Positions 4,606 through 44,893 of a stretch of DNA of 50,797 nucleotides are shown piece by piece. The notes below the pieces were generated by a model. The model was given only the letters and a program-made list of their open reading frames with translations. It was not told the origin of the DNA and made no database searches. The position numbers and the translations under genes were made by a program. Within the stretch, counting starts at the first letter, position 1; every line of letters begins with the position of its first letter. Origin of the DNA: Bacteroidales bacterium (GTDB taxonomy: Bacteria; Bacteroidota; Bacteroidia; Bacteroidales; GCA-2748055); the NCBI GenBank assembly GCA_016936975.1, contig JAFGWU010000026.1:1-50797 (forward strand), read 5' to 3'.

Positions 4606-4631
4606 AAAAAAAGCTTTTTTAAACGTTTTAA
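4606..4631 (+). promoter_or_regulatory. AT-rich palindromes between epimerase and GH130 genes
   Basis: The short gap holds two palindromes: AAAAAAGCTTTTTT (4607-4620) directly followed by AAACGTTT (4621-4628), which ends next to the GH130 start codon at 4632. The second has a central CG, as do LacI-type operators. A weak hairpin that modulates translation of the phosphorylase is also possible. It lacks the GC-rich stem of an intrinsic terminator. Confidence 0.25.
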
Positions 4632-5816
4632 ATGAACAGGAACGATTTTAAGGAACGCATGGATTTTATCCGGAAGGAGCATGAAGCCCTGCTTTCGCGG
4701 AAGAATGAAAGACTTTTCAGTGTGAACGGGATATACAACCGTTACAGGTTCCCGATCCTGACCAGGGATCATGTGCCGTTGGAGTGGCGGTTCGATTTCA
4801 ATCCGGAGACCAATCCCCGCTTTATGGAACGGAACGGCTTCAATGCCACGTTCAATGCCGGGGCCATCAAATGGAACGGGAAGTACCTGGTGGTGGTCCG
4901 TACGGAGGGGAACGACCGGAAATCGTTCTTCGCTGTGGCGGAGAGTCCTGACGGGATCAATCATTTCAGGTTCCGGGATCATCCCGTGACCATGCCCGAA
5001 ACCGGCATGCCCGATACCAATGTGTATGATATCAGGCTGACCGCACATGAGGATGGATATATTTACGGGGTGTTCTGTACGGAACGAAAGGACCCGGATG
5101 CTCCTCCCGGTGACACCAGCAGTGCCGTGGCTGCCGCGGGGATTGCCCGCACCAGGGATATGGAAATGTGGGAACGCCTGCCCGACCTGGTAACTTCCGG
5201 CGGACAGCAGCGGAACGTGGTTCTGCACCCGGAATTCATCAACGGGCAGTATGCCTTTTATACCCGTCCGCAGGATGGCTTTATTGAAACCGGGAGGGGA
5301 GGGGGCATCGCCTTTGGATTATCCGAAAGCATTGTCAGTGCAGAGGTTAAAGAGGAGAAGATTATCGATCCGAAAGAATACCATACCATTTACGAAGTGA
5401 AGAACGGCCTCGGTCCCCCGCCCATAAAGACCCCTGAAGGATGGCTGCATCTTGCTCACGGTGTCCGCAATACGGCGGCCGGCCTCAGGTATACCCTCTA
5501 CATGTTCATGACCGCCCTCGACGATCCATCCCGGGTAATCCATAAACCGCACGGGCACTTCATGGCTCCGCTGAATGAAGAACGGGTCGGGGATGTTTCC
5601 AATGTCCTGTTCAGCAACGGTTGGATTGCCGATGAAGACGGAACGGTTTTCATCTATTACGCCTCTTCCGATACGCGGCTGCATGTGGCCACATCCTCGG
5701 TCGAGCAGCTGCTCGATTATTGCTTGAACACGCCTGAAGACGGCCTTCGGTCCGCGGCATCGGTACAGATCGTTAACCGGTTGATTGGTCAGAATATCAG
5801 GTACACCGGGAAATGA
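4632..5816 (+). CDS. GH130 4-O-beta-D-mannosyl-D-glucose phosphorylase
   Basis: At 394 residues the protein matches GH130 mannosylglucose phosphorylases (EC 2.4.1.281). These cleave Man-beta-1,4-Glc with phosphate to alpha-mannose 1-phosphate and glucose. The motif TNVYDIRLT places the proton-donor aspartate at residue 133. Other family stretches are [20 protein letters not shown] (residues 66-85), [20 protein letters not shown] and GGGIAFGLS. No signal peptide is seen, so the enzyme is cytoplasmic. It follows the epimerase by 26 bp and is probably co-transcribed with it and the symporter. This reproduces the mannan catabolic logic described in Bacteroides fragilis: mannobiose is epimerised, then phosphorolysed. 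The end converges on the GH94 gene 57 bp away. Other GH130 subfamilies act on mannan oligosaccharides or N-glycan cores, but the whole-length resemblance favours the mannosylglucose type. Confidence 0.9.
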
Positions 5817-16839: not shown

Positions 16840-16857
16840 TATTAATTGAACACAGGA

Positions 16858-18885
16858 ATGTACAACCGATCTATAATTGTGCGGAGAAAGATATGCTTAC
16901 TGCTTGGTTTTCTGATTTTGGCTACAGGGGATTTGAACGCACAGATAACACCGCATCAGGCTGCTGAGCTGATGCGGAAGGGAATCAATCTCGGGAATAC
17001 ACTGGAACCCCCTGACGAAGGCGGATGGAACAATCCCCCGGCCCAGGAATACTATTTCGACCTATACAAACAGGCCGGATTCGACGTCGTGAGAATTCCG
17101 GTCAGGTGGGATGAGCATACCGGTTACAATGCTCCCTATACGGTCGAAAAAGCCTGGATGGATCGTGTGGAGCATGTGGTGGACTGGGGACTGGAACGGG
17201 ACCTTTTTATCGTGCTGAATACCCACCATGAAGAGTGGATCAAGGCCAATTATTCCAACCCGGAATACCGGGCACGGTTCGACAGCATCTGGTCCCAGAT
17301 AGCTTTCAGGTTCAGGGATAAATCCGAAAAGCTGATTTTCGAAATCATCAATGAACCTTACGGACTCACCCAGTCCCAGAATAATGAACTGCACCAGCGG
17401 GTGCTTTCCATTATCCGGAAAACCAATCCGGTGAGGCTGGTGGTCATACAGGGCCACCGGTGGGGCGGATCGGATGAATTGATCACCATGGCCGTCCCGG
17501 AAGATGATTACCTGATCGGTTCGTTTCACTCCTATGATCCCTGGCCCTTCGGACTCGAAGGAACCGGGTCGTTCGGTCCGGCCGAGATAGTCGCCTTACA
17601 GGAAAAATTCTCCTCGGTGAAGGCCTGGTCGGATCAACATAACATCCCTGTGCTCCTGGGCGAGTTTGGATGCCACAGGGATGCGGATTATAATCTTCGC
17701 ATGAAGCATTACAAGACTTATGCGGATCTTTCGGCAACCCACGGTTTCATTCCCTGTGCATGGGATGACGGCGGGAATTTCCGGATCATGGAACGACAGT
17801 CCGCCGGCTGGAATGAAATAAAGGATATCCTGGTTCATTCGCCCCTGAATGCACCCGCTAACCCGAAATGTTCCATTGTCCGGGATACAGTCATCCAGCT
17901 TCAATGGTCCAACCTGACCAATGACCACGACAGCATTGTTATTGAAAGAAGGGTATCCCTCTCCGGATTCACAAAATATGCCGACCTCTCACCGGATGCC
18001 AATACCTTCCTGGATGAGAACCAGGTTGCCAACCGCTATTATTATTACCGGGTTATTGCGACTTATATCGACAGCATCTCACTCTATTCCTACCCGGTAA
18101 GAATTTTCCTGGAGGAGTATATACCCGGGGAACGGGGATACTACCTGGGAAGCCCCCTGGATATTCCGGGTGTCATTGAAGCGGAATATTTTGATCTCGG
18201 CGGGGAGGGGATTGCCTATCACGATACGGATCCGCTCAATATGGCTAATGGACTCAGGACAGATGAGGCGGTCGATATTTACAAAATTTCGGACGGGATC
18301 TATTATATCGGTAACGCCTTTCCGGGGGAATGGGTTGAGTATTCAGTGGAGGTCGAAAGAGCAGGGAAATATGACCTGGACATTTACCTCTCGGCCCTCC
18401 TGGATGGGGGCCAGTTTCGGGTCGATGTCGGGGAAACCCGGTCGGATACGCTTGAATCGATCAGTTCGGGAAGCTGGCTTCAGGCCGTTCCCGTAACAGC
18501 CAGCATGAATCTGGAAGCAGGAGAACAGGTCATGAGATTCAGTGTGATCAGTGAACCGCAGTTCCAGATCGACCGGTTTGAATTCAGATTGAACACGGTC
18601 TCCACAGGTCCGCCTGAACCGGCCCATGATGAAATGTCCGTCTTCCGGGATCTCAGGGGGGATATCGTTATCCGTCTCTCCCCATCATCAAAGGCCTCGG
18701 GTATTGGGATCTACAGTTTATCGGGGTGCCTGGTAAAACGTATGAATATGGTTCCGGGAGGGTCGGTTTGCCTCGGACCTTCGGAACTGCCACCGGGAAT
18801 CTATATCGTCAAAGCGGTTGGGAAGGGTATAAACAGTAAGGTTATTCCCTTGTTCTCAAAGATTCTTATCAATCAAAATAGTTGA
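16858..18885 (+). CDS. T9SS-exported GH5 endoglucanase-type enzyme with CBM6
   Basis: I start at the ATG at 16858; a TTG four codons upstream (16846) is possible but unneeded. The 675-residue protein has a signal peptide ending near NAQ. A GH5 catalytic domain follows with INLGNTLEPP, VVRIPVRWDEH, VLNTHHEEW, acid/base Glu166 in EIINEP, FHSYDPW and nucleophile Glu269 in LLGEFG. Next comes a fibronectin-III-like linker (about 332-420), a family 6 carbohydrate-binding module (about 437-577: VIEAEYFDLGG, GEWVEYSVEV, FQIDRFEF) and a T9SS sorting domain (about 593-675). The domain order fits a surface enzyme that binds and cuts insoluble or long beta-glucans. A strong terminator precedes it. Its last 17 bp overlap the convergent SusD gene. 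Exact linkage specificity is not readable. Confidence 0.9.
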   Translation: MYNRSIIVRRKICLLLGFLILATGDLNAQITPHQAAELMRKGINLGNTLEPPDEGGWNNPPAQEYYFDLYKQAGFDVVRIPVRWDEHTGYNAPYTVEKAWMDRVEHVVDWGLERDLFIVLNTHHEEWIKANYSNPEYRARFDSIWSQIAFRFRDKSEKLIFEIINEPYGLTQSQNNELHQRVLSIIRKTNPVRLVVIQGHRWGGSDELITMAVPEDDYLIGSFHSYDPWPFGLEGTGSFGPAEIVALQEKFSSVKAWSDQHNIPVLLGEFGCHRDADYNLRMKHYKTYADLSATHGFIPCAWDDGGNFRIMERQSAGWNEIKDILVHSPLNAPANPKCSIVRDTVIQLQWSNLTNDHDSIVIERRVSLSGFTKYADLSPDANTFLDENQVANRYYYYRVIATYIDSISLYSYPVRIFLEEYIPGERGYYLGSPLDIPGVIEAEYFDLGGEGIAYHDTDPLNMANGLRTDEAVDIYKISDGIYYIGNAFPGEWVEYSVEVERAGKYDLDIYLSALLDGGQFRVDVGETRSDTLESISSGSWLQAVPVTASMNLEAGEQVMRFSVISEPQFQIDRFEFRLNTVSTGPPEPAHDEMSVFRDLRGDIVIRLSPSSKASGIGIYSLSGCLVKRMNMVPGGSVCLGPSELPPGIYIVKAVGKGINSKVIPLFSKILINQNS

Positions 18886-20731: not shown

Positions 20732-20751
20732 GGTTTATCTCTTTAAATTCC

Positions 20752-23700
20752 TTATAATCCTAAATTGATCCCGAGGATAAATTGCCGCGGAATCGGGGTT
20801 AATCCGTAATCCACCCCCTGGTAAAACTGGGAGAAGGAAGATGAAAATTCCGGATCGTATCCCAGGTAATTCGTAAGGGTCAGTATATTATTGGCTGAAA
20901 CATAAAACTCGGCACTCTTGAACACCTGGATCCGGGATGGGAGCCTGTAGCTCAGCTTCACAAACTTCATCCTGAGAAAGGAGCCATCTTCAATCCAGCG
21001 GGAGGAAAAACTGGCGTTCCCGGCCGGATCGTTCCACAGCGCCCTGGGCACATCCGTTTCCTGCCCCTCATACTGCCACCTCCTGAGCACATGGGTGCTC
21101 TGGTTTTCCAGTCCCGACATTTTTTCGTTTTGCGAACGGACATAGTTGAATACTTCATGGCCGTATATAAACTGCAGGGAAGCACTCAGGGTGAATCCTT
21201 TATAGGAGAATGCATTGAATATTCCACCGTAATAATCTGGCATGGGAGACCCGATAATGGTTTTGTCGAATTCATCGATCACATGATCGGGAACGCCTCC
21301 GGGTCCTGAGATATCTTCAAAGATGGCATCCCCTGCACCGAACGGAATTCCCCTGGCATTCACCAGCCCTGCGGCGGCGGCTTCTTCCTGCGTTGAGAAG
21401 ACCCCTTTAAATTCAAGTCCGTAGAAGCTGTGTGCCGGGGAGCCGACCTGGTTGATCTTTTCAGCACCGGGAATGGCATATACCATCCGGTCTGTTTTAA
21501 GATAGGTCACCTCGTTCGCTACAGATGAAAGATAGATATTGAGGTCCCATTTGAAATCCCGGAGGTCAACCAGCCTGGCAAATGTTCCGACCTCCCAGCC
21601 CCTGTTTTGCATGCTTCCCCCGTTCTCGATGATATATTCATAACCCAGGTAGGATTCCACGGGGGTATAGATAATCATGTCGTTGGTTGTGGCTATAAAG
21701 TAATCCACATCCAGTCTCACCCTGTTCCCGAGAAAAGCCAGGTTCAATCCCCAGTCCAGCGTGGTTACCTTTTCATAGGTCAGCCTTTCATTGGGAATAA
21801 GTGCCGGGTAGAGGCCCACCGTTTCCCTGAATTTCACCGGTGCATAGTAATTGGTGGCGGTGGATTCTCCGAAATCGTCATTCCCTGTTTGTCCGGCCGT
21901 AAACCGCAGTCTGAAATCTTCCAGCCATTCCAGGTTTTTGAAAAACCCTTCATTGGATACCCGCCAGGCGACTCCCCCGGAATAGAAGAGTCCGTATGGC
22001 ACATTTCCCAGCATCAGGGTGTTGTCCGCAAATTTTCCTATCCGGGAGGAACCATCGAGCATCACGCTGGCATTGAGGAAATATTTATCCCGGAAGGTAT
22101 AGGTAAGATGTTCATACAGGGAGGTCCAGTTCCAGATCCTGTTGTCGCCGCCAATTTCTCTCAGATTGGACTGACCATCCTGCAAATCCCTGTATTCATC
22201 ATTCTCATGTGCATTTTTTGTAAGTCCCCAGTCCATCTGGTACCTGTTGTTCATCAGATATAAACCGGTGTTGGATGATAAACGGTGGCTGGTTCCGAAA
22301 AAGCGGTTAAATCTCAGATAGGTATTATTGTACAATGAAGTCAGATCGTTATTCATTCCCTTGGAAACATTGAAAGCCTCCTGGTCATAATAGAGTTCCA
22401 TACCCCGGTTGGGTTGAAATATCCGCTCTTTAAGAACATCATAATTAAAGCTGAACTTACTGACTACCGAAAGGCTCCTGTTGATGGTTCCCTCCAGGCC
22501 CAGGCTTGCAATAAAGCTGTAATTGTTATTATAGGCCTCATAATTTTCAATGGTAGCCAGCGGATTGCTGATCCCGATCTCATCGACCTCCGACAGGATG
22601 AAGGTTTCCCGGCCCTCCACGTCATACTGGTAGGGGTTCAGCAGGGGAGATTTTGCCAGGCTGGTGAGAATCGGACTGGTTTCCCTGACGACGGCTGACT
22701 CCTTGAGCCTTGAATTATTGTAATTAAGGGATACGCCCGCGTCCATCTTCAGCCAGGTGAAAATATTCAAACGGCTGATAAAGCGAAGGTTATATCCCTG
22801 GTAGCCGGTGTTCTTAATGGTGCCGTCACTGTTAAGATAGCCGAACGACAAACCGTAACGGGCAATTTCATCGCCACCCTTTACCTTGATGTTCAGGTCA
22901 TACAGCAAACCGTTATTGAATATCAGTTTCTGCCAGTAGGTGTCGTGCAGGTAATTGATATAGCCCTCCTCATCGGGTTCAAGGAAGAGGTTGGGATACA
23001 GCTCCCTGATATCCTCCTCGATCGCTCCGGAGGAGAAGAGCACTTCATTAATCAGGGTTTTATGCTGCCCTGCATTCAGCTGGGGTATCAGATTGGACGG
23101 AGCGAGTGAATAGCCGGTCCGGAGGTTCACTTCAATGGAGGTTTGTGTGACACTCGGGTCGAGGGTTTCAACCAGTATAATCCCGTTGGATCCCCTGGAA
23201 CCGAATACCGATCCGACGGCCGGATCCTTATATATATATGTTTTGGATATGTCAAACGGATTGACTCCCATCAGGGCATTGTACTCATACCCGGCGAGGT
23301 TCGAACCGAAAATGCCGTGGGAGACAATGGGGATACCATCCACGAAATAGACAGGCTGGTTGGAGGCATGCAGAGACCTGACTCCCCTGAGCGTGGTTGC
23401 GGCGCCGCTCCCGGGCATTCCGGAACTGTTTACCACATGCATCCCGGTTATTTTACCCTGCATATACTGGTCGAGGGAAAGCGAAGAGGTCTGATACATA
23501 TCATCGGTGACCAGTTCGGAGAATGCAGGCACGATATCCTTCCTGGGAAGCTGTCGTGCAACCAGGCTGACAGGATCATCTCCCGACAGCAAATCCACCG
23601 GGGTAAGGGTTATTACCAGGGTATCCCTCCGGTTCAGGTAAACTCTCCTGACTTTGTAGCCGGCAGCCGGGGAGATGATCAGCCACTCTTCACCGGTGGT

Positions 23701-23931
23701 ACCGGAAAGGGTGAAAGTTCCGTCCTCGCCTGTTAAGACCGGCATCATGGAAGATTCCTCGATGCTGACCGAAACATTGGGGAGCGGGTCATTACTGCCC
23801 GATTTTACCACGCCGGAGATCATTCCCGGATCCTGGGCCCGTATCTGAAGAATCCCGAAAGCAAAAATAATGGAAGACAGGATTAGCTTCCTGAACCGCT
23901 CCGATGCCGATATCCTTACAACCTGTTTCAT
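20752..23931 (-). CDS. SusC/RagA-like TonB-dependent transporter (pair 2)
   Basis: The 1059-residue protein has a signal peptide, then a carboxypeptidase-regulatory-like beta domain (about residues 36-115: MISGVVKSGSNDPLPNVSV). The plug follows, with LDQYMQGKITGMHVVNSSG, TTLRGVRSL and YFVDGIPI, then a long 22-strand-type barrel ending in FILGINLGL. SusC proteins import oligosaccharides across the outer membrane using TonB energy and a SusD lid. It follows a FAS1 lipoprotein by 18 bp and precedes its SusD by 20 bp. The plug segment after the regulatory-like domain (TPVDLLSGDDPVSLVARQLP) looks less typical than in pair 1, where a clear LEEVTITAKS stretch is present. Confidence 0.93.
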   Translation of the reverse strand: MKQVVRISASERFRKLILSSIIFAFGILQIRAQDPGMISGVVKSGSNDPLPNVSVSIEESSMMPVLTGEDGTFTLSGTTGEEWLIISPAAGYKVRRVYLNRRDTLVITLTPVDLLSGDDPVSLVARQLPRKDIVPAFSELVTDDMYQTSSLSLDQYMQGKITGMHVVNSSGMPGSGAATTLRGVRSLHASNQPVYFVDGIPIVSHGIFGSNLAGYEYNALMGVNPFDISKTYIYKDPAVGSVFGSRGSNGIILVETLDPSVTQTSIEVNLRTGYSLAPSNLIPQLNAGQHKTLINEVLFSSGAIEEDIRELYPNLFLEPDEEGYINYLHDTYWQKLIFNNGLLYDLNIKVKGGDEIARYGLSFGYLNSDGTIKNTGYQGYNLRFISRLNIFTWLKMDAGVSLNYNNSRLKESAVVRETSPILTSLAKSPLLNPYQYDVEGRETFILSEVDEIGISNPLATIENYEAYNNNYSFIASLGLEGTINRSLSVVSKFSFNYDVLKERIFQPNRGMELYYDQEAFNVSKGMNNDLTSLYNNTYLRFNRFFGTSHRLSSNTGLYLMNNRYQMDWGLTKNAHENDEYRDLQDGQSNLREIGGDNRIWNWTSLYEHLTYTFRDKYFLNASVMLDGSSRIGKFADNTLMLGNVPYGLFYSGGVAWRVSNEGFFKNLEWLEDFRLRFTAGQTGNDDFGESTATNYYAPVKFRETVGLYPALIPNERLTYEKVTTLDWGLNLAFLGNRVRLDVDYFIATTNDMIIYTPVESYLGYEYIIENGGSMQNRGWEVGTFARLVDLRDFKWDLNIYLSSVANEVTYLKTDRMVYAIPGAEKINQVGSPAHSFYGLEFKGVFSTQEEAAAAGLVNARGIPFGAGDAIFEDISGPGGVPDHVIDEFDKTIIGSPMPDYYGGIFNAFSYKGFTLSASLQFIYGHEVFNYVRSQNEKMSGLENQSTHVLRRWQYEGQETDVPRALWNDPAGNASFSSRWIEDGSFLRMKFVKLSYRLPSRIQVFKSAEFYVSANNILTLTNYLGYDPEFSSSFSQFYQGVDYGLTPIPRQFILGINLGL

Positions 23932-23949
23932 TTAATCCGGTTTTAATTT

Positions 23950-25506
23950 TTAATCATTGAAAGGAAAGAATTCAATATAATCGATCACCAATCCCTCTTT
24001 AATCACATTGATTGCATCACCCGGTGAGGGGCCTTTATAATCAAACCGGATCATGGTCTGACCGTAGTCCAGTTTGTGTTCAATCCAGCAGTCGAACCGG
24101 TTATACCCCCCTTCTCCGCGGTAGGCCCCCTGGTACACGCTCCACCAGACTTCCCGGTTGCGGACGTAATCATAATAATCCATGGTCATCACCAGCTCAT
24201 CGTTCACATAGATATCATAGACGCCTCCTGTATACATGTTCGTCCGGACCACCATCAGGTATTTTCTCGGGAACAGGTTCTCCACATTAAACTCCAGGCT
24301 ATACGTACCGTCGTAGCCTTCGGTGAAGAGCACCCTTACCGTGGAATCGTTTGATGCTTTGGGAAGATATTCCCTGAAAGGAGGAAAGGATGCATCACTG
24401 GTAACGGTTGCCTTGTCCGGGTCCCATGAAAACTTGTTGAGACCGGTTCTGAGGAGTAACCATTCAGCTTCAAACCTGTAGGAGGTTGTATAAAGGGTAT
24501 CGGGAATATGAAATTCCTCGTAGTTATAGGCATATCCATTGCTGCACAGGATTTTATTGGCCGGCATATAATCGATGACCACGCTGTCACCCAGGATATT
24601 CTTCATTTTAAGGGTGTCCTTGTGTGCGGGCAGGATAAATTCATGTTCCTCAATCATGTTCTCAAAGACACCATGCTCGAGCAGGAAAGGAATCAGTACT
24701 TCGTTTTGCCAGACAAGCGGGATATCGGTATGGTCCTGGTAAACATCACCGAGCGCATCCGCCATCTCATCGAGTGCGGCATTGTAGTCATCTTCCAGGG
24801 GAAAAACGACGGTTGCAGTCTGGAACCGGAACTCTTCACTGACCGGAAAGAACTCATCCTCGAATTCATTAAACCTGATGGCAACCGTGTCGTAGATGGT
24901 GTTGCCGAATTCATCAAATCCCAGGGGACGGCTTTTCGTTTTATCTAGGATGATGGAATCCTTGCTGTCGATGTAATTTTTAAGAACCGGGTTATTGATG
25001 GCGTAATATTCATAAAGGTTCGGCCTGGGTAAAGCCACGCGATCCATGATAAAGAATTTTCCGTTTCTGTACAACGGGCTTTCATAGGTCAGCTCTATGC
25101 CGTCGAGGGTGCTGCCGGCCGAGGTTCGCTCAAACAATGCAAATTTTTCACTGAAGGTCTGGATCTTCCTTTTCCCGTTTATATTCATCGATTGAATAAA
25201 ATGGAGGGAGATATGGTAATCAATTATGGAGCGGGTTACGGTTCCTGTGTCCAGAAGATTGTTGAAGGCCTCATCAGCAGGGATAAAAAGGGTATAGGGA
25301 TCATCCCCGAGAAAGAGGGTATCGTATTTGAAATCTTTGATATATCCCGCAAACAGGGAGAGATTTTCATCCTTCTGGATGACATCCCAGATGTTCAGGT
25401 CCACGGTCTCGGGCTGATCATAATAATGCGCATCCCAATCCTTCCTTTCACAACTGAACAGCAGGAAGGAGAATATTAAAATTATTGCAACGATTCTTGA
25501 ATCCAT
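23950..25506 (-). CDS. FAS1-domain lipoprotein with C-terminal CBM-like beta-sandwich (518 aa)
   Basis: A lipoprotein signal ends in LLFSC (lipid Cys19). A first fasciclin (FAS1) domain covers about residues 38-160 (NIWDVIQKDENLSLFAGYI, DPYTLFIPADEAFNNLL). A second, more divergent one covers about 165-345. The last 145 residues lack FAS1 features and read as a beta-sandwich: GTYSLEFNVENL, GGVYDIYVNDELVMTMD, FDCWIEHKL, then VIDYIEFFP. That ending resembles family 6/35-type carbohydrate-binding modules, such as the RFEF ending in the GH5-CBM6 of this window. In position it replaces the SusE/SusF-type glycan-binding lipoproteins of classical loci. It lies 11 bp after another FAS1 gene and 18 bp before SusC of pair 2. 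Glycan binding is inference. Confidence 0.8.
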   Translation of the reverse strand: MDSRIVAIILIFSFLLFSCERKDWDAHYYDQPETVDLNIWDVIQKDENLSLFAGYIKDFKYDTLFLGDDPYTLFIPADEAFNNLLDTGTVTRSIIDYHISLHFIQSMNINGKRKIQTFSEKFALFERTSAGSTLDGIELTYESPLYRNGKFFIMDRVALPRPNLYEYYAINNPVLKNYIDSKDSIILDKTKSRPLGFDEFGNTIYDTVAIRFNEFEDEFFPVSEEFRFQTATVVFPLEDDYNAALDEMADALGDVYQDHTDIPLVWQNEVLIPFLLEHGVFENMIEEHEFILPAHKDTLKMKNILGDSVVIDYMPANKILCSNGYAYNYEEFHIPDTLYTTSYRFEAEWLLLRTGLNKFSWDPDKATVTSDASFPPFREYLPKASNDSTVRVLFTEGYDGTYSLEFNVENLFPRKYLMVVRTNMYTGGVYDIYVNDELVMTMDYYDYVRNREVWWSVYQGAYRGEGGYNRFDCWIEHKLDYGQTMIRFDYKGPSPGDAINVIKEGLVIDYIEFFPFND

Positions 25507-25517
25507 CTTTTCAATTT

Positions 25518-27083
25518 TTAATTGGGTTCGAACCTGATGTAATCCCAGTTGAGTTCACCCGGAATCAAAGACCTGACTTCAATGATATGCTCTGTGTATT
25601 CCATGAAGGTGATATCTCCGAGTTCAATCTGTGCAAATGGATTTCCCGGACTTCCTCCCGTTGAGAGGTCAACCAGTCCTCCGAATTTTTTACCATCGAT
25701 AAAGACTTCAACCAGGGCATTCTCTGAACTGTAGGCTTCTGCACCGAACAGGACCGTATAGGTTCCCTGCACAATTTTCGGGCTCAGATAGGAGATCGAA
25801 AAGTCTCCGTCGAGAAATAGATAGTCCTGGCTCCATGCCGGATGATTTTCGCTGGCTTCCTTGACATAAAAAAGATCCGGTCCTGTCCAGGTGATATATT
25901 GAAGTGCGGATGGGTCCTCGATGAGATATTCTCCCGGTTCTTCACCCAGCTCCCTGAAGAGCGGTTCCTCCAGGAACTGGAAAGTCTGGATCTGCCTTGA
26001 CGGATTAACCTGCCGGAGGATCTGATCGATCATATGAATGGCACCGCTTCGGGTGATGATATTGCTTTGATCGTAGTAAAATCCCACATAATCCACGATG
26101 GTGGTATCCGGTCCGTTTATGATCGTGTCGAATACCTGTTTCCCTTTATTGATAAGAATGTCGAGCCCGATACCATCAATATTTAACGGGATGTTGGAAT
26201 GGGTGCTGTAATTGGTGCTGACATCCGCAAAATCATCCAGGAACCAAATATCTGAAAGTGCATGGTAGGTTATGAAATTATTGAGGGGATTGGTTTCACT
26301 GGTATAGTCATTCTGGCCGGGACTGATGAGTAAAGCCAGGTCATCGAGGGTATTCATGCCGCACCTCTGAAAAACCGAATCATGCTCAAGAAAAAGTGTA
26401 AAAGGCTTTTCAGCAGATTCCTCATCCTTCGAATCCAGGTTGAACAGAAATTGCAGTCCGGTTACGTCCACTGCCGATTTGAAAATTGAGTACCCGGGAT
26501 GATCCACCAGCCAGTCATATGTAGTGTAGGTAACCGGGTTCAGGGCAACGCTGATCACATGTACATATCCGTTCGATGTTTCGATATTGGGTTTGATGAC
26601 GGGTGACAGGTTATTTATTTTAAAATAGGAGGTGTCGGGTTCCGTCACAAAACTAACGGTGAGGATATCTTCTGAAAGGGTTCTTTCGGGCAGGGCCCCG
26701 AAAGGAAAGTCATCTGTACTGATTCCGCTGTTGACGACGTGATAACGGCTGAGCGTAGAGACGTAGGCATCATCGGCAATCAGATCCTCGAGGGAAGAAT
26801 AGGTTTTACTCTCCTGGATGAAGCGTTCCACTGCCTGATTGGTTGGCAGGAAGAGGGTATATTCCAGGTTATCCGGGTTGTATGCTCCCACGGTTTTATC
26901 GATGCCTCCCGCTTCCAGGATTTTCAGGAAGAGGGAGAACTCCTCAGGATTTTCCTGTACATAATCCAGGATGGTCATATCGATCATATCCTCAAAGCCG
27001 GCTTCAACCGGGGTCGGTTCACAGCTTCTGATTCCGGCCATTAAAACACTCAATCCTGTCAGGGTAATCAATATCTTTTTCAT
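25518..27083 (-). CDS. FAS1-domain lipoprotein with C-terminal CBM-like beta-sandwich (521 aa)
   Basis: The signal ends in AGIRSC, giving a probable lipid-anchored Cys21. FAS1 domain 1 (about residues 34-180) shows TILDYVQENPEEFSLFLKIL, YTLFLPTNQAVERFI and a YHVV strand. FAS1 domain 2 (about 185-375) shows FTLFLEHDSVFQRCG, LNNFITYHAL and GAIHMIDQIL. The remaining 135 residues form a separate beta-rich unit with GTYTVLFGAEAYSSENALVE, FIDGKKFGGLVDL and a final LNWDYIRFEPN. That ending is close to the VIDYIEFFP ending of the next gene. The gene starts 2 bp after the SusD stop of pair 1, so the two are tightly coupled. Together the two FAS1 lipoproteins bridge the SusCD pairs. Adhesion or glycan capture at the surface is the likely role. 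Confidence 0.8.
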   Translation of the reverse strand: MKKILITLTGLSVLMAGIRSCEPTPVEAGFEDMIDMTILDYVQENPEEFSLFLKILEAGGIDKTVGAYNPDNLEYTLFLPTNQAVERFIQESKTYSSLEDLIADDAYVSTLSRYHVVNSGISTDDFPFGALPERTLSEDILTVSFVTEPDTSYFKINNLSPVIKPNIETSNGYVHVISVALNPVTYTTYDWLVDHPGYSIFKSAVDVTGLQFLFNLDSKDEESAEKPFTLFLEHDSVFQRCGMNTLDDLALLISPGQNDYTSETNPLNNFITYHALSDIWFLDDFADVSTNYSTHSNIPLNIDGIGLDILINKGKQVFDTIINGPDTTIVDYVGFYYDQSNIITRSGAIHMIDQILRQVNPSRQIQTFQFLEEPLFRELGEEPGEYLIEDPSALQYITWTGPDLFYVKEASENHPAWSQDYLFLDGDFSISYLSPKIVQGTYTVLFGAEAYSSENALVEVFIDGKKFGGLVDLSTGGSPGNPFAQIELGDITFMEYTEHIIEVRSLIPGELNWDYIRFEPN

Positions 27084-27085
27084 TA

Positions 27086-28570
27086 TTAGAAAATGTAATA
27101 AGGGTTCTGCACGAGGTTGGGGTTCCGTTCTATTTCAGATTCCGCGATAGGCAAATACCAGCCCAGGGGATTAGTCAGCTTTGTGGCGATGATACGTTTC
27201 TGGGTGGATGGTACGTTCGATACGATGATCTCGATCAGCTGGCTTTTCCGGCTGTAATCGTTTCTTCTTCCCATCCTGACCAGGTCGAACCAGCGTTTTC
27301 CCTCAAAAGCCAGTTCGAGTGCCCGTTCCTGCAGGATGGCATCTTCATAGGCCGTGGGGGAATCCGGCAGGACCAGGGACGTTACATCGGCCCTCTTCCG
27401 GATATCATTAATGATTTCCAGTGCCTCTGCGTACCTTCCCAGCTGGGAAAGGGCTTCAGCCTTCATAAGCAGAACATCGGCCAGGCGGTAAACAATCCAG
27501 TTACAACTGTTCTGGATGGATCCGGACCGCACATCCGTTTTATTCCGCCCGACATACTTCCAGATGATATAGTCATCTTCAGCCACTTTTCTGATCGACC
27601 CGTCCTGACCACGGACAAATTCCTTTGCGAACTCCACCCCGAACATCTCAATGGCTTTCTGGCTCGGATCATAACTGTAACTGAACCGCTGGGTCATCCC
27701 GTAAAGGCTGTTGGACTGATTCAGGTTATCGTTGAACTGGAATTCAAAAATTCCCTCCAGTGAATTACCCGGATAAAACAGTTCAAACCATCTTGCGGAT
27801 GGCAACAATAAATATTGATCACTGGCTTCTATTCTTTCGACACAGGTGATGACATCCTCGTATTCAAACAGCCAGAGGGCTATATCTGCCATCAGGGCAT
27901 CAATGGCCGCCTTGGTTGCCCGGCCTCTGATCTCATCCAGGGTCTGGTAACCGTCGGTGGTGGCATATTTCCTGGCTTCTTCGAGGTCGATCAGGAGAAG
28001 CCTGAGCAACTCTTCCCCATCCATTTTTCCAGGGTACACCTCTGTATCATCCGTTTCTGTGGGTTCCGTGACATAGGGGACATCCTTAAAGATTCTTACC
28101 AGGTAGAAATAGGCGAGACTGCGCAGGAATGTGGCTTCAGACAGATAGCTCTTCAGCTGGTAATCGGTAAAGGTGTTGTCGATCTTCCTCACCAGGGGGG
28201 CATTTTTGATAACCTCATTGCAGTAATTGATGACCTGGTAAAACGACGACCAGTTACACAGCCAGTTGTCGGGGTAAATGTTACTTTCTGCGACCATTCT
28301 TTCGCCTGGTTCGCCTGACCCCAGGTTCACATCTCCGACAACCATGTCGGCCCTGAGCTCCCCATACCGGAACAACATGTCGTCCATGGATGCCATGGAT
28401 AAATAGGCTCCCATCACAACGGTCTGAACATCCTCTTTGGTTTTCCAGAATTCCTGTCGGATCAAACCCTGAGGGGGGATCAGTTCCAGCCACTCGTTGC
28501 AGGCTGCCAGCAGGGAGAAGGCAAACAGGAGCAGGATGGTTCTAGTGCGATATTTCATGTCTCTTTTCAT
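27086..28570 (-). CDS. SusD/RagB-like outer-membrane glycan-binding lipoprotein (pair 1)
   Basis: This 494-residue protein has a lipoprotein signal ending in LLAAC, followed by NEWLELIPPQGLIRQEFWKTKEDV, a typical SusD start. The mid-region has LRSLAYFYLVRIFKDVPYVTEP. The family C-terminus is complete: LADVLLMKAEALSQLGRYAEALEIINDIR, LQERALELAFEGKRWFDLVRMGR and LGWYLPIAESEIERNPNLVQNP. It binds glycan over the SusC barrel encoded 14 bp upstream. The downstream FAS1 gene starts 2 bp after its stop. Either ATG, at 28570 or four codons later, could be the start; both keep the signal peptide. Confidence 0.95.
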   Translation of the reverse strand: MKRDMKYRTRTILLLFAFSLLAACNEWLELIPPQGLIRQEFWKTKEDVQTVVMGAYLSMASMDDMLFRYGELRADMVVGDVNLGSGEPGERMVAESNIYPDNWLCNWSSFYQVINYCNEVIKNAPLVRKIDNTFTDYQLKSYLSEATFLRSLAYFYLVRIFKDVPYVTEPTETDDTEVYPGKMDGEELLRLLLIDLEEARKYATTDGYQTLDEIRGRATKAAIDALMADIALWLFEYEDVITCVERIEASDQYLLLPSARWFELFYPGNSLEGIFEFQFNDNLNQSNSLYGMTQRFSYSYDPSQKAIEMFGVEFAKEFVRGQDGSIRKVAEDDYIIWKYVGRNKTDVRSGSIQNSCNWIVYRLADVLLMKAEALSQLGRYAEALEIINDIRKRADVTSLVLPDSPTAYEDAILQERALELAFEGKRWFDLVRMGRRNDYSRKSQLIEIIVSNVPSTQKRIIATKLTNPLGWYLPIAESEIERNPNLVQNPYYIF

Positions 28571-28584
28571 TAATAGCTTAAATA

Positions 28585-31500
28585 TTAGAATCCTACGGCA
28601 ATACTCAGGGTAAGAATTTTAGGCGGCGGGGTGTTGGCGCGGTCCACCCCGATCCAGAAAGGATTGGAAGCATCCTGTCCGACCTCGGGATCCTGTCCGG
28701 AATAATTGGTGATGGTCAGGATTTTTCGGGCACTGAATGCAAGATCCACCGACCGGAGGTTCAACCGGTCGCACCAGTCCTTCCGCAGCCTGTAGCCCAC
28801 TTTCAGGTTAATCAGGCGAAGGTAATCCCCCGGTTCCACGTACCGGTCGGATCCCAGGTTGTTGGCGGGATGGTACATATAGGCTTTGGGTAGTAAGCCT
28901 TCTTCATCCTGGCCCTGGACACGCCACCGGCTCAGAACAGCCTTACTCTGGTTATTGCGGTTGTTCATTCCTTCGGTATCGATAGCCACCTGGTTCACTA
29001 TATCGAACCCCAGCCTGTAGTGGAAGCTGCAGCTCAGATCAAAATTCCTGTAACTCATATTGGTCCCAAATCCCCCGATAAAATCGGGATTGGAGTCCCC
29101 GATAAACACCACATCGTTCAGGTCGATTTTCCCATCATGGTTGATATCTTCATATTTTGCATCTCCGCCCCTGAAAATATAGGTTCCCAGGTAGCTCATG
29201 GGCAACGGGTTTCCTTCATTGTCGCGGATCAGATTGCCGTTGGCATCCCTGGCCATGGCATCTGCGTCGGTAGGGTAGACCCCGAGGTACCTGAAGCCGA
29301 AAAATGAGCCGATCGGCTCGCCCTCGAGCACGCGCAGCGGGAACTGACCGTTACCGATGGAGGTGGAGCGTTCCGTATTGAAATTATCGGGCAGGCTGAC
29401 GAATGAATTGATATTCTGGGAGGTGTTCAGGCTTACCGACCATTTGAAAAAGTCTCCCCGGATGATTTTTACGTCCATCATCACTTCCCATCCCTTATTT
29501 TCCAGGGCACCGCCATTGAAGAACGCAAAATTACCGTAACCGGAGGAGGTGGGGATATTATAAGGATTGAACAACAGATCGGTGGTCAGCTTCTGGTAGA
29601 TATCCCCTTCAATAAATACCCTGTAATCGAAAAGGTTCATTTCGATTCCAATGTCATAGGATGACTGGGATTCCCATTTAAGGTTATCGAGCTGTACACT
29701 CTGGGGAGCGATGGCAGGATAAATCATATAACTTCCGTTTCCGGTGGCTACGTAAGAGGCAAAACGGGCATAGGCATCTGTGGGCTTCCTGCCTGAGATG
29801 CCCCAGCTGAATCTCAGCATGCTCTCGTCAATATACTTTTTAAAGGGTTGCATGAAAGGTTCGCTGGTGAAGCGCCATCCAAGGGATATCCCGGGGAACA
29901 GCCCCCAGCGGTGATTGGTTCCGAAAACAGAGGCAGCATCGGCCCTGAGGGTGGATTGCAACAGGTATTTATCCTTGTACTTGTAGTTAATATTGACCAG
30001 GCCTCCCAGGTCTCTCGTTTCCCCCGAGCCGGTACCGATCCAGTTGATCTGTCCGTCTATGGCCGGATCCTGGATATCGACGCTGGGAATTTTGTTGCTC
30101 TGAAGATTCATCCATTCCCACCGGTTCTGTGTGGTGATCCATGTCATTGCCCCGGTAAGGGTATGGTTTTCATTTCTGAAAGGGGAATCAAAGGCAAGCT
30201 GGGTCTCTGTCCGGATACCCGATTCAATGTTGTTGCTCTCCTCCGCCTTGTTGACGGTCCACGCCAGCCAGTCGGTTCCCAGTGCATTGTAAGGCAGATA
30301 ATTCTGTGTTTTGTAACCTTTATACTGGAAAGAAACGGTTTCATTAATGGTAAGCCAGTCGGTGAGGTTATACCGGAGCCTGAAGGTGTTCTGCAGGTAG
30401 TTTTCATGCCGGTGGTTCTTATCCAGATTGGCTACCGCCACCGGGTTGAAGTAATCGCTTCCGTTTCCCTGGTAACTGTTTATGGGTGTAAAATATTCAC
30501 CGGTTGGATTGCCGTAGGCGTCATACTCCCAGATGCTCATGTTGGGTGCCTTGATCATGGCCATTGATCTGACATTTCTGTTGTTGATATTCACATGCCC
30601 GTTGGTGTTGTTGTTTGTATAATTGAACTGGATCATGAATATCAGCTTTCTGGAAAGATAATAATCCAGGTTAACGCGGGTGGAGATCCTTTTTGAATCG
30701 GTATTGATGGTGGTCCCCCCTTCGTCGATATAACTGAAAGAGGTGAAATACCTTGTTTTTTGTCCTCCCCCGGCAATTTTGAAATAGTGGTCGTGGGTAA
30801 AGGCATTCTGGGTGATCTCATCCAGCCAGTCGGTGTTGGCAGAATAGTTATAAAAGTCGTAGTAGTCGCGGTCGTAGGCAATTTCCGGGGGGATGTCGAA
30901 AACGCCGTAGGCATTGTGCCACTCCTCCAGCTGCAGCATAATATACTCGTCGCCGTTCAGCATCGGGATAGCGGGGGGCTGGATGTTAAGACTTGGCTTA
31001 TACTGGTAGTCAAACTGCACCTTCCCCAGTCTCCCGGCATGGGTTTCAATCAGCAGCACACCGTCGGCACCGTCGGCACCCCATACCGCTGTTGATGCGG
31101 CATCCTTGAGGATTTCGATCGATTTGATGTCCTGTACGGCAATATTGACCAGGTTGCTGAGGTCTTCGGTATCGGCGGAACTGAGATCAATATTGTCCCG
31201 GTTTACACGGAACTGCGGAACCCCATCCACAACGATCAGGGGCTGACTGTTTCCCATTGAACTCAGACCCCTTATGACCAGCTGGGAACCGGAGCCGGGG
31301 TCCCCCGAAGCAATGATATCCAGTCCGCTAACCTTTCCCTGGAGGGCATCGGTGGCAGAAAGGACCCCTGAGTTCTGCATGTCAATCAGGTCGATCTTAA
31401 CAGTGGAGGAAGCATTATCCCGTTCATCGATATTGGTGAGGCTGAACCGGGATTGCGACTTTGCAGTGATGGTGACCTCCTCCAACTCCACATTGGTCGG

Positions 31501-31809
31501 ATTCAGCTCGATGGACAGGACCTTTGTGGGATCGGGGGTGATTTCCCGGGTGTCGTAACCAATCACACTTACCTTCAGGGTGTGATCAATGTTTTTCATT
31601 TCGAGAACAAAGTCGCCGTTCACATCGGAAATGGTTCCGTTGATGATCCGGTTCTCATCGTCATACTCAATGATGTTTGCCCCGATAACCGCAGTTTTAT
31701 CCCCGCTGTCGGTGATCCTTCCCCTGATGATTCTGTTCTGCTGCGAAAAGGCATCACCGGCATTGAAGAGGATCAGTGCAAGCAAAATGGCTGTTATGGT
31801 TTTTTTCAT
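28585..31809 (-). CDS. SusC/RagA-like TonB-dependent transporter (pair 1)
   Basis: I start at the ATG at 31809 (MKKTITAILLALILFNAG); an in-frame GTG five codons upstream (31824) is also open. After the signal peptide comes a carboxypeptidase-regulatory-like domain (IIRGRITDSGDKTAVIGANI) and a LEEVTITAKS stretch. The plug carries ALQGKVSGLDIIASGDPGSG, LVIRGLSSMGNSQP and IVVDGVP, and the barrel ends in ILTLSIAVGF. The length (about 1074 residues) and motifs are standard SusC. It imports oligosaccharides with the SusD encoded 14 bp downstream. A four-FAS1 lipoprotein gene ends 24 bp upstream. It differs clearly from SusC of pair 2 (1059 residues) in plug and loops, so this is not a recent duplication. 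Confidence 0.95.
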   Translation of the reverse strand: MKKTITAILLALILFNAGDAFSQQNRIIRGRITDSGDKTAVIGANIIEYDDENRIINGTISDVNGDFVLEMKNIDHTLKVSVIGYDTREITPDPTKVLSIELNPTNVELEEVTITAKSQSRFSLTNIDERDNASSTVKIDLIDMQNSGVLSATDALQGKVSGLDIIASGDPGSGSQLVIRGLSSMGNSQPLIVVDGVPQFRVNRDNIDLSSADTEDLSNLVNIAVQDIKSIEILKDAASTAVWGADGADGVLLIETHAGRLGKVQFDYQYKPSLNIQPPAIPMLNGDEYIMLQLEEWHNAYGVFDIPPEIAYDRDYYDFYNYSANTDWLDEITQNAFTHDHYFKIAGGGQKTRYFTSFSYIDEGGTTINTDSKRISTRVNLDYYLSRKLIFMIQFNYTNNNTNGHVNINNRNVRSMAMIKAPNMSIWEYDAYGNPTGEYFTPINSYQGNGSDYFNPVAVANLDKNHRHENYLQNTFRLRYNLTDWLTINETVSFQYKGYKTQNYLPYNALGTDWLAWTVNKAEESNNIESGIRTETQLAFDSPFRNENHTLTGAMTWITTQNRWEWMNLQSNKIPSVDIQDPAIDGQINWIGTGSGETRDLGGLVNINYKYKDKYLLQSTLRADAASVFGTNHRWGLFPGISLGWRFTSEPFMQPFKKYIDESMLRFSWGISGRKPTDAYARFASYVATGNGSYMIYPAIAPQSVQLDNLKWESQSSYDIGIEMNLFDYRVFIEGDIYQKLTTDLLFNPYNIPTSSGYGNFAFFNGGALENKGWEVMMDVKIIRGDFFKWSVSLNTSQNINSFVSLPDNFNTERSTSIGNGQFPLRVLEGEPIGSFFGFRYLGVYPTDADAMARDANGNLIRDNEGNPLPMSYLGTYIFRGGDAKYEDINHDGKIDLNDVVFIGDSNPDFIGGFGTNMSYRNFDLSCSFHYRLGFDIVNQVAIDTEGMNNRNNQSKAVLSRWRVQGQDEEGLLPKAYMYHPANNLGSDRYVEPGDYLRLINLKVGYRLRKDWCDRLNLRSVDLAFSARKILTITNYSGQDPEVGQDASNPFWIGVDRANTPPPKILTLSIAVGF

Positions 31810-31833
31810 GGTAAATAGGTTCACCTTGAATAT

Positions 31834-34134
31834 TTAATTTGTATTCAGTTCATCAAAGTCCAGGACGCGGTTGATCTTATGAAGAACCCCGGTTGAAATG
31901 TAATTCTTGAAAATATCGTTGGTCTCCCCGATATCCCGTCCTGTAATGATATTGGAGACATCGGTTTCGTCAACAGTGGTATAGATTCCGCCCTCCTTGT
32001 CCTGAATGGAAATGGATCCGTATCCGGGTTGGATATAGATATTTGAATAAATGGTGGTGAAAGGAGTGGATCGCTCATCCCGCCGGGTTGTTTTATAATA
32101 ACCGGCAGGCTGACTGCCATCGGTGAAGATGAGCGCACCCTGTATAAAATGCAGTCTCAGGAGGTCCTGCAGTTTCTTTGTATCCAGGGTATCAGCCCGG
32201 AAGGCTGTAAGTGCCGAATCAGAGGGGATAAGCACTGTATACTCTTCATTTTCCGAAAGGAACGGAAACCGCAGCGTAAACTCATTGGCAAGACCCGCCT
32301 TGAGCAGGAGGCTGTGAAATCCCGGAAAATCACTGCGAATCTTCTGGTAAATATCCAGGGCCGAAAAGCTGAACCAGTTCTCGATTTCATAGGTACTTCC
32401 GTTATCGGCCCCGGTGGTTATCGGAACAGGGTAGTTCGGCCTGGTTTCGAGACCCTGGTAACCGACGGTTGTGGTAGCTGTTCCGCTGACCTCACCCGTT
32501 TCATGATTGATGATGATAAAATTGCCTGCCAGGTTCCTGATAAACTCCTTCTGGCAGAGCCCGGTAGGCAATCCGACGCCGATATGATTCATCAGCAGGA
32601 TCCTGAGGTCGTTTTTATCCAGCCGGTATTCCCTGACCGATCCTTCGGAAATCTGGAACAACGAAAAGTTTCCCGAAGTGTATAACAGGGAAGAATCCTG
32701 TGCAGTATTGGCATTCGACTCAACATACAGCAAAAAATTTGTATTCTCTCTTTTCAGGGCCGACAGAAGCCCCGCCTCTTCAATCGCATACATGGTTTTG
32801 GAATAACCCCGCAGGAGGTAGACCGGGCCGGCCACACTGTTGAATACCCTCGGAACGATGGTTTTGCTGACCCCGATAAAGGTGCTGTTGCTTCCGTATT
32901 GTTTATCGAGAATGTCTGAAGGATCCACCCGGATCAGATCCATTTCTCCGTTGTAAAATCCGGTTTCCAGATCGGTTTTATAAATGGGATTCGGTGACAT
33001 GTGGGTGTTCACGAGGATCCGGATAATGTTTTTGGGGGTGGCACTCAGGGTGTTCCATTTTGTGGGACCGACAAAATATTCGTTCCAGAATTCATTGAAA
33101 GCTTCGTCGGTAGGGGCAATCAGGCCATGGTGATAGCGTATGGTAACATTCCCGGGCAGTCCGAAGGTCCCGGTCGGGGGTCTGGTCTGCTCATTCAGGA
33201 TGTTAAAGGCCAGTTGGGGATAGTTGATATCAAACAGGGAATCGACCTCCAATCCCTGGTCGGCCCCCGGTTGATCAAAGGTCTTGTCTTCGTTGTATTC
33301 AAATTCGGGGAAGAAATTCACCATATTCAGGAAACTGGCATAGGAACGGCCGCCAGGATCCGATTCCAGCCACTGGAAGGCGTTGGGCATCGGTTCAACA
33401 ACCCGGTCGATCAGATATATGAATCCGTTCTCAGCGAATATCTCGTCCCCCAGGATTTTTCCGCCGGCAAAGAAAATATCCCCCGGATTTTCAATGGGCC
33501 GGTCAAAGTAGAACGTATAATCATCGGTGGTCAGATCATAAATATTGAAATACTCCTTGAAAAAAATGGGGACATATTTTCTTGAATCGGTTGCAATGAT
33601 ACGATGCAGGTCAGACTCCAGGGTATCCACCACTTTTATCGACCTGTCGGGATTTTGCAACACTCCCACTTTCCTGTTGTTCTCAAGGTACAATGTCTGT
33701 CTTTTGAATCCCCTTGGTTTGTTGTTGGTCCGGTCCAGTGAATCGATCCAACCGTACACATCCAGTGTGCGGAGCTGAATTTTGGTCCACGGATTCTGTA
33801 CAATATGGTATTTAACGATCTTATTCAATTCAGGCAACGGTATATCTTCGACAGCATCGTACGATGGCTGGGACTGAAGATACAGGGCGAATGCCTCATT
33901 GGTCGGGGCAAAAACCGTATAGCTTCCCGATGTGTTGATTATGGTATCGTAACCGGTCCGTTCGAGGCAGAGCGCAAATGTGGAAAGGTCGGGCAGTTCC
34001 AGTATCTGGGAATAGATCTTCCCCGCCAGCCAGTCGGGCCTGGCATATTTATCCTCGTCCCTGAGCTCGGGATTGCACCCTGCAAAACATATGATCACGA
34101 TTGCCAGAGGGGCAAGCAGTCTGTTGAGTGTCAT
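31834..34134 (-). CDS. Multi-FAS1-domain surface lipoprotein (766 aa), first gene of the FAS1-SusCD operon
   Basis: A lipoprotein signal ends in CFAGC (lipid Cys20). Four fasciclin-like units can be traced. Unit 1 is around residues 40-255 (YTVFAPTNEAFALYLQS, IVKYHIVQNP, NGFIYLIDRVV). Unit 2 is around 260-450 (HGLIAPTDEAFNEFW). Unit 3 is around 455-590 (FLLYVESNANT, RILLMNHIGVG). Unit 4 is around 600-760 (YTVLIPSDSALTAFRADT, LLRLHFIQGALI, GVLHKINRVLDF). Unlike the other two FAS1 proteins it ends directly after the last FAS1 unit. FAS1 domains usually mediate adhesion to proteins or sugars. As the promoter-proximal gene it should be the most abundant product of the operon. No enzymatic motif is seen. 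Confidence 0.82.
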   Translation of the reverse strand: MTLNRLLAPLAIVIICFAGCNPELRDEDKYARPDWLAGKIYSQILELPDLSTFALCLERTGYDTIINTSGSYTVFAPTNEAFALYLQSQPSYDAVEDIPLPELNKIVKYHIVQNPWTKIQLRTLDVYGWIDSLDRTNNKPRGFKRQTLYLENNRKVGVLQNPDRSIKVVDTLESDLHRIIATDSRKYVPIFFKEYFNIYDLTTDDYTFYFDRPIENPGDIFFAGGKILGDEIFAENGFIYLIDRVVEPMPNAFQWLESDPGGRSYASFLNMVNFFPEFEYNEDKTFDQPGADQGLEVDSLFDINYPQLAFNILNEQTRPPTGTFGLPGNVTIRYHHGLIAPTDEAFNEFWNEYFVGPTKWNTLSATPKNIIRILVNTHMSPNPIYKTDLETGFYNGEMDLIRVDPSDILDKQYGSNSTFIGVSKTIVPRVFNSVAGPVYLLRGYSKTMYAIEEAGLLSALKRENTNFLLYVESNANTAQDSSLLYTSGNFSLFQISEGSVREYRLDKNDLRILLMNHIGVGLPTGLCQKEFIRNLAGNFIIINHETGEVSGTATTTVGYQGLETRPNYPVPITTGADNGSTYEIENWFSFSALDIYQKIRSDFPGFHSLLLKAGLANEFTLRFPFLSENEEYTVLIPSDSALTAFRADTLDTKKLQDLLRLHFIQGALIFTDGSQPAGYYKTTRRDERSTPFTTIYSNIYIQPGYGSISIQDKEGGIYTTVDETDVSNIITGRDIGETNDIFKNYISTGVLHKINRVLDFDELNTN

Positions 34135-44880: not shown

Positions 44881-44893
44881 GGCTCAGATTAGG

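Follow-up and report, generated by a model that had tools for sequence, protein, structure and literature searches.

What is made by a row of genes in which three fasciclin-domain (FAS1) lipoproteins alternate with two pairs of SusC/SusD importer proteins? The question is raised by positions 18869-34134 of the window, by which we mean the whole stretch of 50,797 nucleotides analysed here, a contig of a Bacteroidales bacterium (JAFGWU010000026.1). In the ORF list of the window this interval is filled by seven open reading frames, all on the minus strand. We interpret them as a conserved seven-gene block, predicted to be a single operon and likely to encode an outer-membrane glycan-uptake machine. 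On the sequence evidence described below, we put the probability of this interpretation at about three in four.

The first gene, g1 (31834..34134), is predicted to encode a lipoprotein of 766 amino acids with four FAS1 domains (PF02469 above cut-off; hhalign). It is followed by g2 (28585..31824, 1079 aa), a SusC/RagA TonB-linked outer-membrane protein (Plug, CarbopepD_reg_2, TIGR04056) belonging to the clade that we call SusC1, and by g3 (27086..28570, 494 aa; PF07980, PF14322), the SusD1 lipoprotein, presumed to be the partner of SusC1. Two further predicted lipoproteins, g4 (25518..27083, 521 aa) and g5 (23950..25506, 518 aa), each contain, by structural model and hhalign, two FAS1 domains and a C-terminal sandwich, CBM35/CBM6-like in g4 and CBM-like in g5. 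The block ends with g6 (20752..23931, 1059 aa; Plug, TIGR04056), which falls in the SusC2 clade, the sister type of SusC1, and with g7 (18869..20731, 620 aa; PF07980, PF14322), the SusD2 lipoprotein and presumed partner of SusC2. The order can be written as FAS1x4 - SusC - SusD - FAS1x2+CBM-like - FAS1x2+CBM-like - SusC - SusD.

From g1 to g7 the intergenic gaps are 9, 14, 2, 11, 18 and 20 bp. The gene g2 was called from a GTG; an ATG lies five codons downstream, is perhaps the true start, and would make the g1-g2 gap 24 bp. The earlier note had described seven minus-strand genes with gaps of about 2-24 bp, which is what we found, the 24 bp being obtained only from the ATG of g2. A promoter and terminator scan was uninformative (25 against 21.5 in shuffled sequence, sd 5.2, and 21 against 15.8, sd 3.5).

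The Pfam scan also agreed with the earlier description of three FAS1 lipoproteins interleaved with two SusCD pairs: it identified three fasciclin proteins, two SusC proteins (TonB plug, carboxypeptidase-regulatory-like domain) and two SusD proteins, and no glycoside hydrolase in any of the seven proteins of the block. The fasciclin proteins exceed the PF02469 cut-off of 22 with 95.7, 82.7 and 30.8 bits, and g2 and g6 score 674.7 and 578.9 bits against the RagA/SusC cut-off of 368.25 (NCBIfam TIGR04056). With cut-offs of 23.1 (PF07980) and 27 (PF14322), g3 reaches 134.8 and 47.2 bits, and g7 passes both with 36.9 and 29.5 bits. NCBIfam gave no name for g1, g4 or g5 at E≤1e-5.

The number of FAS1 domains had been put at four, one and one. 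Profile-profile comparison confirmed the four of g1 (residues 49-248, 325-428, 443-590 and 602-759; hhalign probabilities 96-99.6) and revealed two each, not one, in g4 and g5. The best fold matches of the FAS1 parts are periostin and TGFBIp. Because sequence searches of single C-termini for CBM families were weak, structural models of g4 and g5 were used. In the models each protein has two FAS1 domains followed by a CBM35/CBM6-like sandwich, spanning residues about 360-521 in g4 and about 339-518 in g5, and the C-terminal domain of both has a fold of the CBM35/CBM6 type. By sequence, CBM_35_2 was touched by two of 46 g4 proteins (E≤0.1; best E 0.065) and CBM64 by one, and no CBM family was detected in the 46 g5 proteins. 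The Pfam family DUF5108 is matched in 14 of the 46 g4 proteins. In g1, g4 and g5 no SusE/SusF Pfam family was matched, Fasciclin being the sole match at E≤0.001.

A loose lipobox-like pattern is present within 70 residues in 43/46 g1, 41/46 g4 and 46/46 g5 orthologs, and a stricter pattern in 32, 26 and 25 of the 46, respectively. In the eight positions after the lipobox the mean number of acidic residues is 2.47 for g1, 2.65 for g4 and 2.52 for g5, compared with 1.81 for SusD1 and 2.22 for SusD2. As a weak test with no computed background, lipobox and acidic residues together fit the predicted location of g1, g4 and g5 as surface lipoproteins.

The glycan-binding role of g4 and g5 is a prediction from the likeness of fold in the models. 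The CBM-like ends appear to be the likelier glycan binders and the FAS1 domains the likelier spacers. The proposal that FAS1 lipoproteins stand in for the usual surface glycan-binding proteins is supported by these ends and by the counterpart BT4167 discussed below, whereas the idea that adhesive FAS1 units themselves form the binding part is not.

Our literature background is drawn from excerpts (PMC10199937, PMC10434189, PMC8002723, PMC13088901, PMC3243724, PMC11784079, PMC7618045); among them is a description of SusCD importers as dimeric, each with a lid and assisted by lipoproteins. In the mechanism that we propose, g4 and g5 would be surface lipoproteins that catch a polysaccharide chain with the CBM35/CBM6-like cap, presented on two FAS1 domains. 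The g1 protein, which has four FAS1 domains but lacks the cap, would serve as scaffold or spacer. The captured chain would be cut by surface enzymes encoded beside the block, not inside it. SusC1 and SusC2 would then receive the oligosaccharides from their SusD lids and import them using TonB energy.

The genome from which the window comes (3.48 Mb in 102 contigs, 89.9% complete) contains five more blocks of the same order, on contigs C34, C41, C54, C72 and C97. The C34 block has six genes, one middle FAS1 gene being absent, and the other four have seven; on C41, C54 and C97 the examined stretch stops inside SusD2. Identity among the six blocks is 20-40%, except for C41 and C97 (50-71%), so that the duplications are mostly old. 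The best match of a SusC1 among the copies is always a SusC1 and that of a SusC2 always a SusC2. The g5 and SusD2 genes diverge fast, and some of them find their closest counterpart at another FAS1 or SusD position, or find none. The SusC2 profile has 36 matches in the genome, counted as about 32 SusC-like frames, and 12 of these belong to the six blocks, as do 27 of the 30 FAS1 matches. The other three FAS1 matches lie at L006 4187-4921 and on C19 and C4 of the same genome, two of them at contig ends.

A FAS1 model found matches in 22 of 41 genomes (the window's genome and 40 relatives): in the window's own genome, in 18 of 24 others of its family, and in 3 of 16 from other families of the order. 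We then used our own profiles for SusC1, SusC2, SusD1, SusD2 and FAS1 on 20-kb stretches. For named genomes the probe was a SusC1 alignment made from the cassettes, devoid of any FAS1 sequence, and the best 80 of at least 599 matching stretches were kept. Among these 80, a FAS1 gene is directly upstream in 41 of the 42 loci with SusC1 identity of ≥30%, and the 42nd stops at a contig edge. Below 30% identity (38 loci) there was one full six-gene block (L115), and three loci had a short SusC-SusD-FAS1 form; in the remaining 34, no FAS1 was detected by profile among the three preceding and the four following genes.

An oddity of this one lineage was considered and rejected, because the order recurs in several families of Bacteroidota. 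Six carry it, as the earlier note's expectation of a recurrent FAS1-SusCD order requires: Flavobacteriaceae, Chitinophagaceae, Sphingobacteriaceae (in the six-gene form), Marinilabiliaceae, Prevotellaceae and Bacteroidaceae. Among the hosts are Algibacter, Salegentibacter, Flavobacterium, Chitinophaga, Thermoflavifilum, Geofilum, Prevotella and Paraprevotella; the six-gene form was met in Sphingobacterium and Parapedobacter. The cassette is patchily distributed, frequent in certain families but rare across most of the genomes sampled. At E≤1e-20 the g4 protein was found in 215/301 genomes of one family (f18) and in 11/80 genomes of one genus (g23). The broader g4 profile (A9, E≤1e-40) matched at least 10 of 395 genomes sampled phylum-wide, the window's own included, a lower bound as at most three candidates per genome were scored. 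The narrow profile (A3, E≤0.001) matched 174 of the 395, and among the matches listed most were partial FAS1 hits, with full-length ones in seven genomes besides the window's.

Two variants deserve description. The three-gene SusC-SusD-FAS1 form (L117, L119 and L120, 10001 onward) occurs in Sphingobacterium and Gramella, and its SusC branches outside the SusC1/SusC2 pair; it may be left over from a stage that preceded the duplication. The g4 and g5 profiles match its FAS1 proteins weakly, and the profiles of the g4/g5 CBM-like ends do not match them. In a six-gene clade (L047, L048, L115, L121) SusC2 is shorter and is followed in 4/4 loci by a gene for 631-649 aa; in L047 this gene and the next one (421 aa) encode BNR-repeat, sialidase-like proteins.

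How far the seven genes form one unit was assessed in 73 loci whose SusC1 is immediately preceded by FAS1, reduced to 72 by dropping one duplicate (L041 = L116). SusC1 and SusC2 occur in one run in 62 of the 72, and in L093 SusC2 follows past a spurious ORF; the other nine loci stop at an edge. Both SusC types are thus present in 63/63 uncut loci. All seven genes are present in 46 blocks, although the end of the stretch cuts SusD2 in 22 of them and g1 in one; L085 and L091, whose g5 was at first unlabelled and only later matched by the g5 profile, are outside this set. No pair of the 46 blocks exceeds 90% identity in SusC1. The 276 gaps in these blocks have a median of 14 bp, and 263 of them are ≤60 bp.

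In a SusC tree of 84 chosen rows, SusC1 (31) and SusC2 (31) were united with 99% SH-aLRT, each formed a supported group of its own, and both stood apart from ordinary SusC; the tree was made by a quick method with midpoint root and no bootstrap, and its deep order is only partly resolved. SusC1 and SusC2 are, as judged from this tree, sister types. Their branching is largely mirrored (window-L061, L001-L063, L003-Geofilum, L005-Prevotella/Bacteroidaceae), with some differences, for example in the placement of L081. Distances between blocks computed from SusC1 correlate with those computed from each of the six other genes, with r from 0.80 (SusD1) to 0.955 (g1), and with r 0.95 for SusC2. None of 2000 permutations reached the observed correlations, to which the common descent of the hosts contributes. 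The nearest block agrees between SusC1 and another gene in 26-31 of the 46 cases, which means that the co-divergence is strong, not perfect.

These data bear on how the two SusCD pairs are related in function. They may be two independent importers of different oligosaccharides that share an operon for regulation, each FAS1 protein being tied to one pair and no joint complex being formed. The divergence of SusC1 and SusC2 into sister types speaks for this, and the six-gene variant reads as FAS1-SusC-SusD twice, as separate units would. Against it stand the presence of both types in every uncut locus, the largely mirrored trees and the correlation of SusC1 with SusC2 distances, and we consider it a serious contender with somewhat less than an even chance. 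Our more ambitious proposal, tentative and rather doubtful as a whole, is that SusC1-SusD1 and SusC2-SusD2 form an obligate heterodimer instead of a SusCD homodimer, with the three FAS1 lipoproteins on top. One barrel would serve for loading or selection of chain ends and the other for bulk import; the two pairs would stem from one duplication and have been kept together, and the whole would represent a phylum-wide class whose block was copied intact and re-aimed through the adjoining enzymes.

The likely substrate of the glycan-uptake machine was approached through the neighbouring genes. A GH5 enzyme with a CBM6 (16846..18885, plus strand; PF00150, PF03422), whose best PDB match is endoglucanase H, is convergent with g7 and overlaps its end. 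Farther away are a 1306-aa protein with a type IX secretion tail (12865..16785, plus strand; Por_Secre_tail), a cellobiose phosphorylase (GH94; 5874..8318, minus strand; 3qde, 1271.7 bits) and, identified by domain and PDB matches, a cellobiose-2-epimerase-like protein with a 4-O-beta-mannosyl-glucose phosphorylase (GH130; 3382..5816, plus strand). The GH130 protein is close to the 4-O-beta-mannosyl-glucose phosphorylase 3was (E 7.5e-184), and the epimerase-like protein scores below the NCBIfam cut-off. A second GH5 and a GH2 are encoded further along the window. The locus is therefore a PUL in the sense of susCD beside CAZymes, with GH5-CBM6 adjoining and GH5, GH2, GH94 and GH130 beyond, all carbohydrate enzymes of the window being encoded in transcription units other than the block.

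Elsewhere in the window, three consecutive MlaD-, ABC ATPase- and MlaE-like genes (43834-46410) probably form a lipid transport set, and a 724-aa protein (41659-43833) carries an intramolecular chaperone tail of the endosialidase type (Peptidase_S74).

The GH5-CBM6, the other GH5, the two phosphorylases and the epimerase point to fragments of beta-1,4-glucan or glucomannan, beta-1,4-gluco(manno)oligosaccharides, as the likely cargo of the window copy. When 33 stretches around copies in the window's genome and its relatives were compared, homologs of the 1306-aa protein were found in seven (30-63% identity), of GH5-CBM6 in four, of GH94 in one, of the second GH5 likewise in one, and of GH130 and the epimerase in none. 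The rarity of GH130, the epimerase, GH94 and the second GH5 indicates that these genes do not regularly accompany the cassette, and no conserved neighbourhood backs the mannan part of the substrate assignment. The placing of the window's enzymes in other transcription units also counts against the assignment. Other copies adjoin other enzymes, rhamnogalacturonan lyases in Bacteroides and GH115, GH2 or acetylesterases elsewhere, and some have no CAZyme directly adjoining (for example, with TPR, MFS or semialdehyde dehydrogenase neighbours). A guess from protein lengths that ECF sigma/anti-sigma genes lie upstream was discarded, since Pfam identified cyclophilin, phytase-like, sulfatase, GH43 and cupin proteins. 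Upstream in L081 is a hybrid two-component regulator, and the large neighbour in L110 is a CheB/CheR fusion with kinase domains.

The Bacteroides copies connect the block with a studied system. For rhamnogalacturonan I (RG-I) in B. thetaiotaomicron, the excerpted text of a review states that the surface glycan-binding protein (SGBP) BT4167 binds, BT4170 cuts, and BT4164/65 and BT4168/69 import; the PUL is given as BT4145-83, and a listing of BT4164-69, likewise excerpted, includes a DUF5108 protein. An excerpted later table has the PUL with BT_4163-65 as substrate unknown. In genus g23 we examined 13 of 15 g4 matches, from nine genomes, those of G777 and G791 being left out; the block was present in 13/13 loci, with broken frames in two. 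L183 and L184 are two cassettes on one contig (G778, C78) with several broken frames, which may come either from decay or from sequencing error. In four of the 11 unbroken loci the g5 position was unlabelled by profile, and Pfam recognises FAS1 in two of these. The g5 protein of L185 is identical to a record from Bacteroides sp. 224, and the gene that comes next after SusD2 in this locus encodes a Pel9A-like lyase carrying the domain 'Rhamnogalacturonan lyase BT_4170-like, C-terminal' (PF16380, E 6e-57); the gene order beside a BT_4170-like lyase is matched in this one Bacteroides copy, not in the window copy. After the G751 block comes a family 11 RG lyase, with GH106 further on. No RG lyase, GH28 or GH106 was found among the 19 flanking window proteins scanned.

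From the roles given in the review, the DUF5108 listing and the lyase of L185, we infer that g1-g7 correspond to BT4163-BT4169, a link made of gene order and Pfam names in which g5 is the positional counterpart of BT4167. One member of the cassette has thus probably been studied already, under another name, in a well-studied RG-I PUL. The RG-I core resembles the block in its two SusC/D pairs and in an SGBP numbered between them, but its pectin enzymes differ from the beta-1,4-glucan/mannan enzymes of the window. The literature excerpts neither use the name FAS1 for its proteins nor mention a wider family, and records from Bacteroides relatives bear the names 'fasciclin domain' or 'hypothetical protein'. 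No description of a FAS1-SusCD family was found among the literature matches listed, mostly outside subscription journals. The earlier view of the system as under-described therefore holds for the family, but less so for the one member that is probably part of the RG-I PUL.

Other known systems are more distant. The SusC1 profile finds its best PDB hit in the SusC homolog 8aa4, which we take to be that of the dextran utilisome. The levan and dextran utilisomes of B. thetaiotaomicron share with the block the combination of SusC/SusD and surface glycan-binding lipoproteins. As described in the excerpts, they are built from a dimer of a single SusCD pair together with a surface hydrolase and an SGBP, whereas the block encodes two types of SusCD and three FAS1 proteins and lacks a hydrolase. 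The starch Sus is an outer-membrane importer pair with the accessory surface lipoproteins SusE/SusF; it is like the block in having both in one gene set, and unlike it in that the accessory proteins of the block are FAS1 proteins. A FAS1 gene inside a PUL is also found in Gramella portivictoriae, where, in the excerpt of PMC4891872, a cellulose/hemicellulose-like PUL comprises a 'FAS1 domain protein', GH5, GH9, GH26, SusD, a GlcNAc-2-epimerase and a symporter. The Gramella locus of our own set (L119) is of the three-gene form, unlike the seven-gene block.

Two further readings fare worse. The FAS1 lipoproteins could be mainly adhesins for fibres, host or biofilm that adjoin the SusCD pairs for convenience, since animal FAS1 domains act in adhesion and the closest folds are periostin and TGFBIp; the lock-step divergence of the FAS1 genes with SusC, the CBM-like ends of g4 and g5 and the role in RG-I binding that a review reports for BT4167 make this improbable. 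Import of peptides, glycoproteins or other non-glycan cargo is very improbable: membership in SusC/RagA leaves the cargo unfixed, and RagA, of the peptide importer RagAB, is among the solved relatives, but CAZymes adjoin many of the copies examined and the window encodes enzymes for beta-1,4-glucan/mannan breakdown.

The block is a FAS1-based, twin-SusCD form of a known kind of uptake system, and it is real, recurrent and orderly. The range of plant and algal polysaccharides on which Bacteroidota can feed, whether in guts, soils or seas, is decided by their SusCD systems. If our reading of the block as a glycan-uptake machine is true, there would be a recognisable class of SusCD systems in which surface binding is carried on FAS1 and not on SusE/F-like proteins, and in which two importer types are linked, raising the question of why SusC1 and SusC2 always co-occur. 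By our own count, more than one third of all SusC-like frames in the window's genome would belong to this class. It would suggest a testable role for proteins whose present label is 'fasciclin domain' or 'hypothetical protein', and RG-I uptake by B. thetaiotaomicron would serve as a model for many further loci.
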